From Paracyclopina nana (taxonomy: Eukaryota; Arthropoda; Copepoda; Cyclopoida; Cyclopettidae), in NCBI GenBank assembly GCA_019096065.1, contig JAGUCH010000002.1:4972501-5036500 (forward strand): 64,000 bases of DNA, written 5' to 3'. The notes under the pieces were generated by a model that made no database searches, was not told the DNA's origin, and worked only from the letters and a program-made list of their open reading frames with translations. Positions 6,021 through 31,663 of this stretch are shown here, piece by piece (position 1 is the stretch's first letter; each line of letters opens with the position of its first letter). A program made the translations under genes and the position numbers.

Positions 6021-6300
6021 ATGATAACTCTGAGAGTGATTCTGATTCAATTATAAGCTTTTAAAGCGGTTGTCAGTTGGTTCGATTCCACACATGTAAA
6101 AACAAGGACAGTTTTCTGTATTGGCGGTAATCTAAACTTTTAGGCTACTTTTGTGGATGATCTGAACGAGACTGGCCCGACTGGGTCTCTGCTCAGATCG
6201 AGCTCAATCTCAGCAATCGCGACTTCCATATCCGCTTTGAAAATCGAGGAGAGAAGGTTAAACTGTATTCCAACTCGGCGCAAATCGAAACTTGATAAAA

Positions 6301-8492
<2,192 letters not shown>

Positions 8493-9535
8493 ATTAAACT
8501 CAATTGCAATTTAAGAAAGTTTATGTAAGAAACTTAATTAAGAATAATAAAAGAATTTGTGAACTTGAAAGCATCCTTGTCAGGTTTTGTCTATTCCTTG
8601 TTATCGCTACTTTTCGTCTCTTCTTATGCTAAGATCGCTACAAGTGTTCTTTGCTAGGGCTATTGAGTAACTTTAAACTAGCATTTTTTCATTGCTTTAG
8701 AGATCCTCAGTTCTAATGAGGATTTTTCATCCAGAATCAGCTCCATATGCTGCTAGGAGGTGACATAAGGCACAATTCTTAATGGTTTCAAGGTGTCATG
8801 GAAACTTTGATATTGCCTTTTCTGATTGAACGCAGGGTGGATTTTCACGAGACAGAGCTGCATCATAAGGCGTGTCAAGCGTGACGTCAAAATGCTGGAG
8901 CTGTTCTGCTGTTACGATCAATAGACTAGCTATGTATTGAAACTCGTGGTCATGAGTATAGTTACAGGAGAGCCTGGCAACCTATGACAGCAAGAAGAGC
9001 AAGCTGGTTTCTTTAAAGTCTTTATAGCCCTTGCTGCCAATTCTGGCGGAGCTGAGGCGAGAATTGGTTACTTTTTTGAGAATAATCTCAGCCTTCTGCT
9101 TGGCAAAAATCCTCTTCAGATTTGGAGTATGGCAGTATACTTGATATGTTAGACGGATCACTCTACGCACGGAGAAGTGTTAAGAGATTTGGAGCATATA
9201 TTTTGAGCCCTCATAGCTCAAATACATATGCAATAATGTCACTGAAAATGGCAATCATTTCCGCCAGATGGCCTAATGTCAATTTTTTTAACGCCAGCTG
9301 GCGCTTTTGTTTATAATCATTTCAAGCATCCGTCAGCAGCAGTCAAGCAAAGAAAAATCTCGCGAAATCACCTTGGTCACAACGTGCTCAAACAACAAGT
9401 CATTTCTGACGGGAATTTCGATTCGTCTCTAAGTCAACTATCCGGAGACGTCTCGACCAACGTGGACACTCTTGCACTTACTGCTGTCGGCTCTGCCTTG
9501 CCTTATTTTGTGGGTGTGGTCCGACGAATACAAAA
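8493..9535. other. Intergenic between vasa and the TLDc gene
   Basis: AATAAA-like signals about 50 nt after the vasa stop (around 8545) mark its probable 3' end. I see no gene, clear repeat or structured RNA in the rest. Confidence 0.5.
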
Positions 9536-25657: not shown

Positions 25658-26069
25658 TTTAGAATTGGAGCAAGGTTCCTTTTTTGATTTTTTCAGGTTT
25701 CAAAACAATCGCCGAGTTGCGACTTGCGAGTGAACCGCAGCAATTTGGCGGAATTCTTCGAACAGCCAACAGCAACCTCGTTCAATTTGACGGCTTGTAC
25801 GCTATACTTATGTATTAGAATAAAATGTAGAATTCTTTAAGTACACAAGTTTTGTGATATTTCTTTGATAATGTGAAATTGTAGAGAAGCATTTATTCAT
25901 CGATTCTTTCATCATAATTACAGAGGACATCTCACAAAAAAGAATGGTTCATTGTAGGCTCTCTAATCGTAGAAAATAGCTACTTTCTTTCGAGGTTAAT
26001 TTCTTCTTGCAAGATGAATTTAGCTAGGGCCGCCGCTAGACTGGGGTCGCACGCTCTTACCCCGCCGAG
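25658..26069. other. RanBP2-RanGAP 3' UTR and Myb-like 5' flank
   Basis: A minus-strand AATAAA (TTTATT at about 25892) fits the RanBP2-RanGAP 3' end about 175 nt after its stop. No other feature. Confidence 0.4.
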
Positions 26070-29000
26070 TCAGGCCTCATCGTCATACTCTCCGCCTTGG
26101 CCATAATAAATTTCATCGGCATTGAGGCTGCCTCCAGAGATAGGCTGTTCAAGGATCTCACTTTGCTCGGCTAACTCTTTGCCCTCTTGGAAAACAGAGA
26201 CGAAGTCAATCTGGGCATCTTCCTGCACTTTGGCAAAGTCGGCAACAAACTTGCGGTATTTGGGTGGATCGACAGAAAAGTCCAGACCAGACCAGCTGCA
26301 ACGCTTGTTCTCTTCGTCTACATCCAAAGTGGTTTGCATGGCAATGATGTGGTTGCATAGATAGACTTCGTCTTCGTTCACCTCTCCGTTGACACCGCTG
26401 CTGTTGTTGGCCTTGAGGGCAATGATTCGCGCACCATAGACATCCTCATCATAGAGGATTTTCAAAATAGCTGGGCCTAAATGGACTTCTTTTTGTCCAC
26501 CATAGTTGGAGAGATCTTCGTACAGCTCGCACTCTCGCTCGTACATTGTGTTGTCGGAGTCTTCACTCTGCTCATCCTCAGCCGTCTCCTCGTCTTCATA
26601 ATCCTCGTCATTTTCGTCCTCGTCGTCCTCGTCATCATCGTTCTGAAGACACAATTTGAAATATAGTTACAAATCGTTTAAAAGGCGCGAGCATTTCTTA
26701 CCCTAGCTGGCTTGGCTCGGTCTACGATGATGGAGGCGGCTGCGGATGAGTCAACAGCTTCCGTATTGGCAGGGCCGGACTTGAGCTGGACCTGAGCTGC
26801 TTCAAAGGCCTTCTTGAACTCGTCCTTAGTTTCCGCAAGCTTGAACTTAACGGCAAGCTTCTCCACTTGTCCTGCGGGGTCGTCAGTGAAGTCCATGGCG
26901 AACCAGGTCAGAGCTGTCTCGGAGCTGAAATGAGCAAAATGCTACTGATGACAAAGCAGAAGGTGAGTAAGCAAAAATCTTACCTCGACATCGGCTCTAG
27001 CTTTTGATCGACATTAATATAATGGTTGCAAGCTATTTTGTGCACTTGATCGCGACGCAAAAGTACGCGGAAGGTATTTTTCGCAGAGTGGTGAAGGATT
27101 TTGATGTCGCCAACGCCTCTCTCCTTCCACTGTTTCGTATCCTTGTCGAATCTAAAGTAATAATAATATTTAAATAGGGAGAAGTAGATGAAGGCACAAG
27201 CAGAAAATTATTGGCTATATTAAAACAAAGCAAAATTGAAAAAAGTAAGGGTGCAAACTAGTTCATTACCTGTAGACTTTGGCGCGGTGCTTAAAAGTTA
27301 CTTCTTCCTCCTCCTCGCCGGTAGTAACGTTGATGAGCTCGGGAAGGGGAACAATGGGCTCAAAGTGAGGATCGTGCTCAGGATCTTCAGCGACAGCATC
27401 ATTGTCATCACCATTGGGCTTTGCTGGGCTTTTGTTGGCAGCTCCTCCAAAAACAGAAGCGCCTGCTCCAGCAAATGAAAATCCCTCAGACTTTTGCCCA
27501 AAAGCAAATCCGCTCGTGTTGCTGCTCAAAGCCTCGAAGGTTGGGAGATTCTTGGATGCTGATAAATCAATTCCAGCATTGGGAGACGATTCAGTCTTTG
27601 TACCACCAAAAATGGGAGTTGTGTTGGTTGATGAGCCAAAGAGTCCCCCGGTGCTTGAGCCAGATCCAAAGCCTCCGAAAAGACTAGTAGCAGCTGGAGT
27701 GGATGAGCCGAATTTGGGAGTAGCAGTTGAAGATGAACCTCCAAAAATGGAAGGTGAAGCAGAAGTGGCGGATGAGTTTCCGCCAAACAAATTTGTGGTG
27801 GGCGTCGTTTTCAAGCCTCCAAAAATGGACTCGGCTGGCTTGCTGGCTCCAAAAATTGAGGTCGCTGGCTTTGCAGCAGCATTTGCAGCTCCGGTAAATG
27901 AAAAAGAAGACAAATTTTGAACAGCGGGAGCCTCTTCTTTGGACTCGTCTCCTTCCTCAGAGGCTTGTCCTTCATCTTCGCTATCCTCGGGCTCCTCGTC
28001 ATCTTCAATTTCTTCCAAGACATGCCTTTTGTTGGCAAGCTCAAGTTTTTTCATGATCTTTCCGCAGCCATCCGCTCCGAACTGGTTAGTGTCAAGCACC
28101 AATTTTTGAATGTTGGCCTTATTGGCAATGGCATCAACGATAGCAAAGCCGCCAGCAAGCCGTATCTCGTTGGAGTCCATGTGCCATTCTTTCAACTGAT
28201 CGTGTCCTTGTTTAAGTGCGTACGAAATCAGCCTAGCACCTTCAGTCTTCAGCAAGCAGTCTCCAAGGTTCAAGACTTCCAGCTTCTGTAACTTGGGCAG
28301 AGCATCGGCAAGAGCCTTAGCTCCTTTCTCGGTAAAAGTGTTGTCATTCATGTTCAAAATGCGAAGATTTGGGTTGTTGGCAAACGCGTCAGACAAAGCA
28401 GTGATGCCTTCGTGAAAGATGCCATTTTGAGGCATGACAACTTCCTCAAGAGAGCCCATGAGCTTAAAAACTTCCGCAAGAGCCTTGGCGCCCTCATTTT
28501 CCTGCCTGGATCGGCCCAGAACGAAGGTTTTTAAAGCTAGTTGGCCATTGGAGCCTTTGTGGCATTCCAAAAGTGTTTTGGCCAACAATTTGCCGCCCGT
28601 GACTCCACACCCAGTGTTGTTCAGCTTCAGCTCCTTCAAAGTGTAACAAGCAGAAGATCTCAAGAGATCAACAATGCCTTCCATACCAATGGGACCAAGA
28701 GCGTTGTCACTTAAATCCAGCTCCACTAGCTTGACATTGGCAGTCATCATGCCCTTGCTAAGATGCTTGAGAGCTGGGGGGATCTCCGTTTTCATCCGAC
28801 CAGTGAACATATCTTTCCAATGCACATACGTCAGTTCTGGATGTGTTTCAAGAGCTTTGCCAATGACCTCTGCAGCATCAATTCCAACCGTGTTTCCAGA
28901 AAAGGTCAAAGTGTGGAATTTAGGAGTGGCGTTCATTTTAGCCACCACACCTTTGGCATCATCAGCATTGTTTAACTTCAAGCCTTGTCCTTCAAAGCTG

Positions 29001-31663
29001 AGCTCAACCGAGTTACCTGAGGATGCAGCAGTAGTTTCAGGCACAGTCTTCTTGGGGGTGGGTGGCTTGGACTTGAGTGCCTCTTGAGCGGCTTCAAATA
29101 CTTTTTTGAACTCGTCCTTCGTTTCGGCAAGCTTGAAACGCGCGGCCAGCTTTTCCATCCTAGCCTCGCCATCATCACTGTAATCCATAGCAAACCAGGT
29201 TAGCGCAGTTTCGCTTTTGGCCATTGGCTCCAGCTTCATGTCAGTGGTGATGTAGTGGTTGCAGGCAATTTTATGCACTTGCTCACGACGCAGGAGGATG
29301 CGGTAGGTATGCTTCTCAGGGTGGTGCAAAATCTTGAGATCGCCAATGCCTCGCTCCTTCCACTCCTTGGTATCTTTGTCAAAACGGAAGACCTTTGACC
29401 GGAACTTGAATTTCACCTCTTCCTCTTCCTCTCCGGTAGTCACCTTGACCAGTTCAGGCAAGGGAATAATTGGCTCAAAATGGGGATCGTGATTAGTGCT
29501 GTCATCGTGACCTTCATCCGCCACTTCTTCAGGCTCTTCTTGCTTCGGTGCAGTTGGAGCGATGGTCTGAATGCCGGAAAAAGAAAAGCCTCCAGTGCTA
29601 GGAGCAGTTGTTGTCTCAGCAGGCTTGGTTCCAAAGGAAAATCCAGAGAAAGGAGAAGGTTTAGTGGTGGCTGTAGTAGTAGCAGGTGCTACAGCTGCTG
29701 GCTTCCCAAAAGTACAAGCTGCAGGCGCAGAAGGATTACCAGCCTCGGTTCCGAAACTAAACTTGAATCCTCCACCTGATCCAAATGAAACTGCCGGTTT
29801 GGCAGCTTCTTCTTTGGCCTTGGCTTCAGCCTCGTGGCCTGGCTTGGGAGTTTGACAGGCGGGGCAAATGATGACATCTGCATTCTGACGCAAAAAGCAT
29901 CCACCGCACTCCCACGAGCCTGGTTTCGGCTTGAACTTGTCAAATCCGCTTGAAGCCTGAGATGCAGTGGTTGTTGTTGCAGCAACTACGGTGGTCTTTT
30001 TTTGGGTGGTTGAAATCGTGTTGACAGCGGAGAAAACTGGCGCGGGAATGCTGGACAAAATAGCTGAGGTGGTGATGGGAACAGCAGGGCCTTCCTTCTC
30101 TGCAAAAGGCGAGGTTGCTGGATTGGCTACATTCGGCAAGTTGATTTGATAGTTATGAGTTCTGGGTGGAGTGGACTCGGTCTTCACGGCTCCTCCCAAC
30201 CTGTGCTGAGGCGGAATGCTCACAGGCGCCAAAGCAGGACTACCAGTGTTGGAGGAAGGAGTGGGAATCTTCTCGGAGGAAGTGATAACCACATTGACAG
30301 GAGTGTTGCTCATATTCATGGCCACGGGATGCTGAGGCACAGCAGCTCCAGCCGGCCATGCAGCCATTCCTGGACCTAGCTGGGGCCTAGGGAGCAGGGC
30401 TGCTGGTGCAGCTGGTGGCGGGACAACGCCCACTGGCATGGCAGGCAAAGGAGGCCTAGTTGCTTGAGCAAACATTCCAGCCATGCTCAAGTTAGACATT
30501 TGAATAAGAGCTGCCTGCTGAGTTAGGGCCTCCTGCAAATCCTGCATGTTGAGGCTCTTAGCTGGCGTTGAATTCGACTTATCTTCGCTCTTGCTGACAA
30601 CGACCACCTCTTGCTTTTGGGAAGCATTGCGACGCATCTCCTCTTTCACATCCCTCCAAATCGAGTTCATTTCACTTCTCAGGTCCTTGACAGCATCAAG
30701 GTTTTCCCTCAAATTTCGGTTCATATCTTCCCGAGTCTTCCTCAGTTCACCAAGAATGGCCTCTTGAGTTTCCAAGAGCGAGCGGCTGTTTTCCACCATA
30801 GCCGAGGCCATTTTGTCATGTGCAGCCTCTACGCTACGAATCTGATTGGCCAGTCTCTCGGGGCTCGGGCGTGGTGGAAAACGACGGGCTGCACTGCCTG
30901 GTGCCTTGCCGGGGGTGCTGTTCAGGGCGTCCTCGAGGCGGTAACTACCATTCAACGCAAAACTTCCTCCCAGGCGGGAAGTGGACCACAAAATAGAGTT
31001 GTCAGCCTCAATCTCTTCGTCACGATCTCTCTGACTGGAAGGGCTGTCATCAGTGCTGTGTTGTCCATTTCCATTGACATTGTCGTCGTCGCTCTCACCT
31101 ATCATCTTGTCACGCAACTTGGCGAAAACTTTGTTTCGCGGAAAAAGTTTTTCGCCTTGATCAACCCAATACCTGAAATAGAACGTCATGAATTAAATAA
31201 ATCGGCTATTAAAAAAGGATGCTAAATTAAAACGTGCGTTACGTAACAGCTGTAAGTGATAAACGGAATATCTAGAAAAAAAGTACCTTGTTCTTTCGAC
31301 ATCTCTCACTGGCAGTTGAGACATGAGCTCGCATATCTTGATCAAAAGCTCCTTTTGGCTCAAATCAAGCTCATACGATGTTTTGTAGGCCTCGACGGCA
31401 GCAAGTTTGTGGACATAGGCCTGTTCTTGAGGGCCTTTCTCTGCCAAGTTTTCCAGAACTTGTCCTCGAAATTTGAAGGATGGAGCAGACGAGGTTCTGA
31501 CTTCTGAGTACTTGTCCAAATGCTTGAGCGCAAGCTCCGACTCACCGATGTGGAAGTAGAGCCTTGCAACGGTGAAAGACTTCAGAGCTCTCTCAGTGGA
31601 TGAAGGAATCTTCTCCTCGAGATCAGCGACGTACTTGTCCACGTCACGCTTGCTCCGAAACAT
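26070..31663 (-). CDS. RANBP2: RanBP2/Nup358 nucleoporin with an embedded RanGAP1 catalytic domain
   Basis: Five minus-strand exons (31287-31663, 27270-31172, 26984-27151, 26702-26924, 26070-26642) give 1747 residues. Order: RanBP2-type TPR start (about 1-155; YWVDQGEKLFPRNKVF matches the human region), coiled coil (about 235-310), one RanBP2-type zinc finger (about 545-570, WECGGCF..CPACQTPKPG), Ran-binding domain 1 (about 690-825), RanGAP leucine-rich repeats (about 845-1175), acidic stretch, FG/IFGG repeats (about 1210-1375), Ran-binding domain 2 (from about 1390), acidic linker and a degenerate third Ran-binding-like domain at the end. The GAP domain keeps the catalytic arginine motif MFTGRMKTEIPPAL and GRSRQENEG. 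RanBP2 captures RanGTP at the cytoplasmic pore face and RanGAP1 hydrolyses it; here both are one protein. The large alpha-solenoid, cyclophilin domain, SUMO E3 repeats and RanGAP1 SUMOylated tail are not visible. Confidence 0.93.
28020..29011 (-). other. RanGAP1 catalytic LRR domain inside the RanBP2 exon
   Basis: Within exon 2 of the RanBP2 gene this stretch encodes about 330 residues matching the RanGAP1 catalytic crescent, from VELSFEGQGLKLNNADDAK to GADGCGKIMKKLELANK, followed by an acidic run as in RanGAP1. The reading frame is open and intron-free from before Ran-binding domain 1 (about 29480) through the FG repeats to the middle of Ran-binding domain 2 (27270). Confidence 0.95.

Follow-up and report, generated by a model that had tools for sequence, protein, structure and literature searches.

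In the copepod Paracyclopina nana the Nup358/RanBP2 gene contains, flanked by two Ran-binding domains (RBDs), the catalytic portion of RanGAP, and we put the probability that this represents a gene fusion replacing the SUMO tether at about 0.83. The window, a 64,000 nt stretch of contig JAGUCH010000002.1 (assembly GCA_019096065.1), had been the subject of a sequence-only reading which claimed a fusion of RanBP2/Nup358 with RanGAP1, and this was borne out at the genome level, where an open gene carries all of the domains and no free RanGAP was found. The sequences are best read as indicating that Paracyclopina nana has no RanGAP apart from the domain within Nup358.

Gene structure and domains

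The fusion gene lies on the minus strand of the window (31663-26070) and consists of five exons separated by four introns of 114, 118, 59 and 59 nt, all with GT-AG borders. Once spliced, the exons listed below contain no internal stop and encode 1747 aa (computed mass ~189 kDa), ending with a stop codon at 26072-26070. The bulk of the coding sequence lies in exon 2, within a minus-strand open reading frame of 1308 open codons (27266-31192), and this exon runs in order through the end of the TPR domain, a coiled coil, a zinc finger, FG repeats, RBD1, RanGAP, an acidic tail, further FG repeats and the start of RBD2. A single open exon of 3903 nt thus holds both RBD1 and RanGAP as well as the beginning of RBD2. 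Both of the limits originally drawn for it, 27270 and 31172, are exact splice borders, and the frame is open throughout, as had been stated.

31287-31663, minus strand: exon 1, carrying the start codon and the greater part of the Nup358/RanBP2 TPR domain (residues 1-125), with a GT donor after 31287
27270-31172, minus strand: exon 2, 3903 nt, a single open frame (open reading frame and splice borders)
30617-30868, minus strand: predicted coiled coil, residues 228-311 (heptad a/d score 0.68, reached by 0 of 2000 shuffles)
29837-29917, minus strand: RanBP2-type zinc finger, residues 545-571 (Nup153 finger 2k0c, E 2.9e-8)
29570-29770, minus strand: FG patch A, about residues 594-660 (three FG in 594-660, four in 545-700)
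29069-29488, minus strand: RBD1, residues 688-827, intronless (Pfam Ran_BP1, 144 bits)
27980-29011, minus strand: RanGAP catalytic LRR domain and start of the acidic tail, residues 847-1190 (human RanGAP1 9b62_G, E 4.7e-113)
27440-27907, minus strand: FG patch B, about residues 1215-1370 (11 FG in 1190-1390)
26777-27373, minus strand: RBD2, residues 1393-1532 (Ran_BP1, 68 bits in exon 3 and 29.5 bits in exon 4)
26984-27151, minus strand: exon 3, part of RBD2 (gene model)
26702-26924, minus strand: exon 4, end of RBD2 (gene model)
26070-26642, minus strand: exon 5, with an acidic stretch, the RBD-like domain at the C-terminus and the stop codon (gene model)
26109-26549, minus strand: C-terminal RBD-like domain, residues 1589-1735 (profile comparison with an RBD by hhalign at 44-59% probability, E 4e-5 to 1e-4)
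25892-25897, minus strand: AATAAA past the stop codon; the sense strand carries no other AATAAA/ATTAAA between the start codon and 800 nt downstream of the stop

The identification as RanBP2/Nup358 gains from a part left unnamed in the original reasoning: residues 1-151 correspond to the N-terminal TPR of human RanBP2 (4ga2, E 1.6e-20). The match to this 753-residue human chain stops at human residue 147, and in human Nup358 the TPR is followed by a long solenoid. As the match ends there and intron 1 spans only 114 nt, there is no room for such a solenoid, which seems to be missing from the fusion, and pore anchoring is therefore less certain, being left to the TPR and the coiled coil. The latter occupies what we take to be the position of the Nup358 oligomerisation element. 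The earlier assignment of a single zinc finger has in its favour the W-x-C-x2-C-x10-C-x2-C spacing and the match to the Nup153 finger, and against it the Pfam model (Zn_ribbon_RanBP, PF00641), which gave 14.8 bits with a cut-off of 27. Pfam Nucleoporin_FG was likewise under its cut-off (19.2 bits), and the FG repeats that had been described are present as counted above.

The Ran-binding domain recognised from the letters alone passes the Pfam cut-off, as do both large pieces of RBD2. RBD1 scores 144, 139, 140 and 154 bits against human RanBP2 RBD1 to RBD4, respectively. The start of a second RBD had also been noticed; it is present in exon 2, and exons 3 and 4 complete RBD2, which is cut by introns at 27269-27152 and 26983-26925. 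The paper on 9b62 (PMC12246119) describes two residues of human RBD4, R2975 and K2980, as contacting Ran; in our alignments RBD1 and RBD2 both have R and K at these positions. The C-terminal RBD-like domain lacks the Ran-contact residues seen in both RBD1 and RBD2, and is only weakly RBD-like; it had no Pfam match and no PDB match better than E 0.6. Among the exon translations we found no match at E ≤0.1 to IR1-M, which belongs to the IR1-M-IR2 region that acts as SUMO E3 and dock in vertebrate RanBP2, and no Pfam match to the cyclophilin domain with which the vertebrate protein ends. NCBIfam yielded nothing further.

The claim of a full RanGAP1 LRR domain held up well, with 381 bits to human RanGAP1 (9b62_G) and 184 of 340 aligned residues identical (54%), against 151 bits (E 3.7e-43) and 118 of 344 for the S. 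pombe RanGAP Rna1 (1k5d_C). R918, K920, N978, D1069 and D1097 align with human R91, R93, N151, D245 and D273 and with Rna1 R74, K76, N131, D225 and D253, and at these five Ran-contact positions the residue is kept or conservatively changed. In Rna1, R74, K76, N131 and D225 are functionally important. One position counts against an intact GAP, where S1126 stands in place of human F302 and Rna1 Y283. Past the LRRs the acidic stretch that had been noted is a D/E-rich tail (residues 1181-1208), and the fused RanGAP ends without the RanGAP1 C-terminal domain, which carries the SUMO site. The interval between RBD1 and the LRRs is 19 residues with the appearance of a low-complexity linker, in which the NES helix of human RanGAP1 was unrecognisable by eye, our only means of comparison. 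On sequence grounds, with 54% identity to human and the key residues kept, the GAP part is not decaying, and the domain scores (Ran_BP1, RanGAP, TPR and zinc finger) rule out chance. The 'catalytic MFTGR arginine' of the sequence-only reading is, by contrast, a misnomer, since hydrolysis as described in the paper on 9b62 (PMC12246119) proceeds without an arginine finger, through ordering of Ran switch II.

Searches for a separate RanGAP and for the SUMO tether

As had been proposed, we searched the genome (91.95 Mb in 10 contigs) for a free RanGAP, and two queries found the fusion alone. With the fusion's own GAP as query there were four matches at E ≤1, of which the fusion scored 764 bits and the second-best 25 bits, whilst with S. 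pombe Rna1 the fusion was the sole match in the genome (149 bits). Neither the contigs of other genomes nor viral contigs supplied relatives: 97 pattern matches to the GAP part in the former and five to RBD1-GAP in the latter included none.

The SUMO-site domain RanGAP1_C (PF07834) had no match in the genome at E ≤10, with one of 14 control genomes giving a match below the cut-off and no eukaryotic genome among the controls. For IR1-M the best genomic match, on a different contig from the fusion, was 17.7 bits and under the cut-off, and none of the control genomes, which again included no eukaryote, gave a match. As a eukaryotic positive control is lacking, these two absences are weaker than that of a free RanGAP.

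The remainder of the Ran system and the SUMO pathway was readily found. Ran is present in two exons with 92% and 77% identity, the switch II glutamine (DTAGQEKF) and an acidic C-terminus; SUMO scored 86.9 bits with a reading frame that closes with the typical QQTGG; Ubc9 shares 79% identity, and RanBP1 is also encoded. Seven Ran_BP1 matches occur in the genome, three in the fusion, two in RanBP1, one in a Nup50-like gene and one at C2:17464448 (32.9 bits). Since Ran, RanBP1, SUMO and Ubc9 were all found, the searches were sensitive enough for genes split by introns. We considered whether the tether had disappeared because SUMO or Ubc9 was lost, and rejected this, as both genes are present. To judge from the searches, the Ran system and SUMO pathway exist, whilst the parts with which vertebrates tether RanGAP1 to RanBP2 were not found.

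It could be argued that the fusion is real, yet the working RanGAP is a normal, separate gene that is missing from the assembly or too diverged to be seen. The assembly is indeed not gap-free, containing runs of N with which contigs C8 and C9 open, but both queries, including the fission yeast Rna1, return the fusion alone, RanGAP1_C is likewise without a match, and Ran, RanBP1, SUMO and Ubc9 were all detectable. Moreover, the fused GAP is 54% identical to human, has its key residues kept and shows no decay. We reject a separate RanGAP gene as very unlikely.

Transcripts, assembly and origin

An error of assembly joining two genes is the least credible of the explanations that we considered and was rejected, in agreement with the original view that misassembly is unlikely. 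Nothing was seen in its favour, and both joins are in frame inside the one open 3903-nt exon. The GAP part has a GC content of 0.472 and a GC3 of 0.520; across the remaining seven parts of the gene GC runs from 0.473 to 0.535 and GC3 from 0.355 to 0.621. The RBDs that flank the GAP on both sides are paralogues.

A different objection is that the locus is genuine but makes two proteins, one a Nup358 lacking the GAP and the other a RanGAP that is separate or has a different tail, through alternative splicing or an internal promoter, with the full fusion minor or absent. A near-consensus donor (CAG|GTAACT at 29016) does sit in the linker that joins RBD1 to the GAP, and downstream of it, in the FG region, are six in-frame YAG acceptors, one with 13 of 20 pyrimidines, matching the four real introns. 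From its sequence context, a GAP-less splice form that uses this donor is possible. A free RanGAP is harder to derive from the locus, as the linker contains no Met and the first Met past RBD1 is residue 872, within the LRR domain, such that the protein would need a non-AUG start or would carry part of RBD1; because of this lack of a Met from RBD1 to residue 872, a clean free RanGAP appears less likely. The frame is, in addition, unbroken throughout, and a scan of the sense strand found no AATAAA or ATTAAA inside the gene. Production of two proteins is thus improbable, and we continue with the reading of a single fused protein.

The two RBDs share 75% protein and 72% DNA identity, and 56 of the 107 residues that they have in common are encoded by different codons, which on sequence grounds means that their duplication, or last exchange, is not recent. 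Among the human domains RBD4 is the best match to both RBD1 and RBD2, with 56% identity to each. There are no introns in RBD1 and the GAP and two in RBD2; a spliced cDNA inserted into the gene could account for the intronless RBD1 and GAP. Constantly bound protein partners may fuse, a general idea with which the gene is in keeping. The statement that no such case had been described is in line with the single open-access library of papers that we searched, where none was found; a covalent RanGAP-Nup358 fusion, though new to the literature searched, may be annotated or known elsewhere.

Proposed mechanism and known RanGAP systems

We consider it likely that this lineage is without any free RanGAP, such that interphase hydrolysis of GTP by Ran would be confined to the pore filament, with a covalent bond replacing the SUMO1-Ubc9 tether at the corresponding place between two RBDs. 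In the mechanism that we propose, the TPR and coiled coil would hold the fusion at the cytoplasmic face of the pore, where the FG patches would capture exportin-RanGTP-cargo complexes. An RBD would then grip Ran together with its acidic tail, loosening the cargo, and the linked LRR domain would order switch II of Ran, whose own glutamine would hydrolyse the GTP. The covalent link would do the job of the SUMO1-Ubc9-IR tether, and one chain could thereby do what four chains do in the human complex. We infer here that the fusion is expressed at full length, localises to the pore, is catalytically active and works in cis. The linker between RBD1 and the GAP is ~20 residues with no FG patch, whereas that between the GAP and RBD2 is ~200 residues and contains FG repeats; of the two, RBD2 is the safer candidate and could plausibly bind the same Ran as the GAP.

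The anchoring of RanGAP is known to vary, with SUMO/RanBP2 used in animals, a WPP domain in plants and no anchor in two yeasts, as set out in PMC11825100. In vertebrates, the RanBP2 site to which SUMO1-modified RanGAP1 and Ubc9 bind has FG repeats and RBDs on its flanks (PMC4866044), and the human IR1-M-IR2 dock sits between RBD3 and RBD4 (PMC12246119). A reconstituted RanBP2 fragment with RanGAP1 was reported to disassemble Crm1 export complexes and to promote Ran-GTP hydrolysis, with the RBDs acting in cis in the release of cargo (PMC4866044), and the GAP, Ran and RBD4 are described as one subcomplex in human (PMC12246119). The Paracyclopina nana protein has in common with the human RanBP2-RanGAP1*SUMO1-Ubc9 complex the TPR N-terminus, a probable zinc finger, FG patches, RBDs and a RanGAP placed between two RBDs. 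It differs in being one polypeptide, whereas assembly of the human complex depends on SUMO and Ubc9; in having no IR above the cut-off, no RanGAP1 C-terminal domain and no cyclophilin match; in possessing two clear RBDs (human four), one zinc finger and a short N-terminal domain; and in the lack of an FG patch between RBD1 and the GAP.

In plants, RanGAP is directed to the pore by an extra part of its own chain, the WPP domain (PMC11825100), as is proposed here for the fusion; the WPP domain however binds a separate plant nucleoporin, whereas the GAP of the fusion is part of the nucleoporin itself. Yeast Rna1, used with soluble RanBP1, belongs to the same catalytic LRR family (35% identity over the search match) but is described as being away from the pore (PMC11825100) and is separate from the RBD protein. 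The crystal of S. pombe RanGAP with Ran and RanBP1 (1k5d) contains the same trio of Ran, RBD and GAP as three separate chains, and its RBD and GAP are the parts that are covalently joined in the fusion.

In animals with both RanGAP pools it is hard to test whether the pore-bound pool suffices or the soluble one is needed. Paracyclopina nana, apparently with no soluble RanGAP, would be a natural experiment on the purpose of the RanBP2-SUMO-RanGAP1 complex, on the action of RanGAP in mitosis when it is inseparable from Nup358, and on the geometry of one Ran common to an RBD and the GAP. The fusion would also offer structural work a single chain for studying the disassembly of export complexes.

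Elsewhere in the genome, a Nup50-like gene on contig C3 (4999000-5008900, within it 6147-9388) has an N-terminus that matches Nup50 3tj3 (E 1.4e-12) and an RBD that matches Nup50 2ec1 (E 1.1e-27), and the interval between them contains FG stretches and apparently three RanBP2-type zinc fingers in separate open frames. The first finger passes the Pfam cut-off (31.7 against 27) and is closest to the human RanBP2 zinc-finger region (E 1.3e-30), whilst the second and third were recognised by eye only and are split by apparent introns. Nup50 is not known to carry RanBP2-type zinc fingers, and from the arrangement of the sequence this locus may encode another hybrid nucleoporin. Should all these parts belong to one gene, this lineage would have swapped Ran-binding modules between nucleoporins more than once. 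The Nup153 model (PF08604) matched neither this genome nor any control genome and is uninformative on Nup153. A search for COX1 gave no match. Genes with RCC1-type repeats, a family that includes the Ran exchange factor, look much expanded, with at least 150 scored repeats among 216 candidates, many of them clustered (C4:9.40-9.64 Mb, C3:1.48-1.50 Mb and C7:0.066-0.17 Mb); they are probably other RCC1-repeat proteins, not the Ran exchange factor.

At the contig ends, C8 breaks off within an 18S rRNA gene (L030:939-2000), so that at this point the array of rDNA has probably been collapsed or truncated. Telomere arrays of TTAGG/CCTAA, typical of arthropods, are present at 10 of the 19 contig ends examined. 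Three others of the 19, namely the start of C1 and the ends of C2 and C4, carry long arrays in which the repeated unit is the pentamer CCTGG or its complement.
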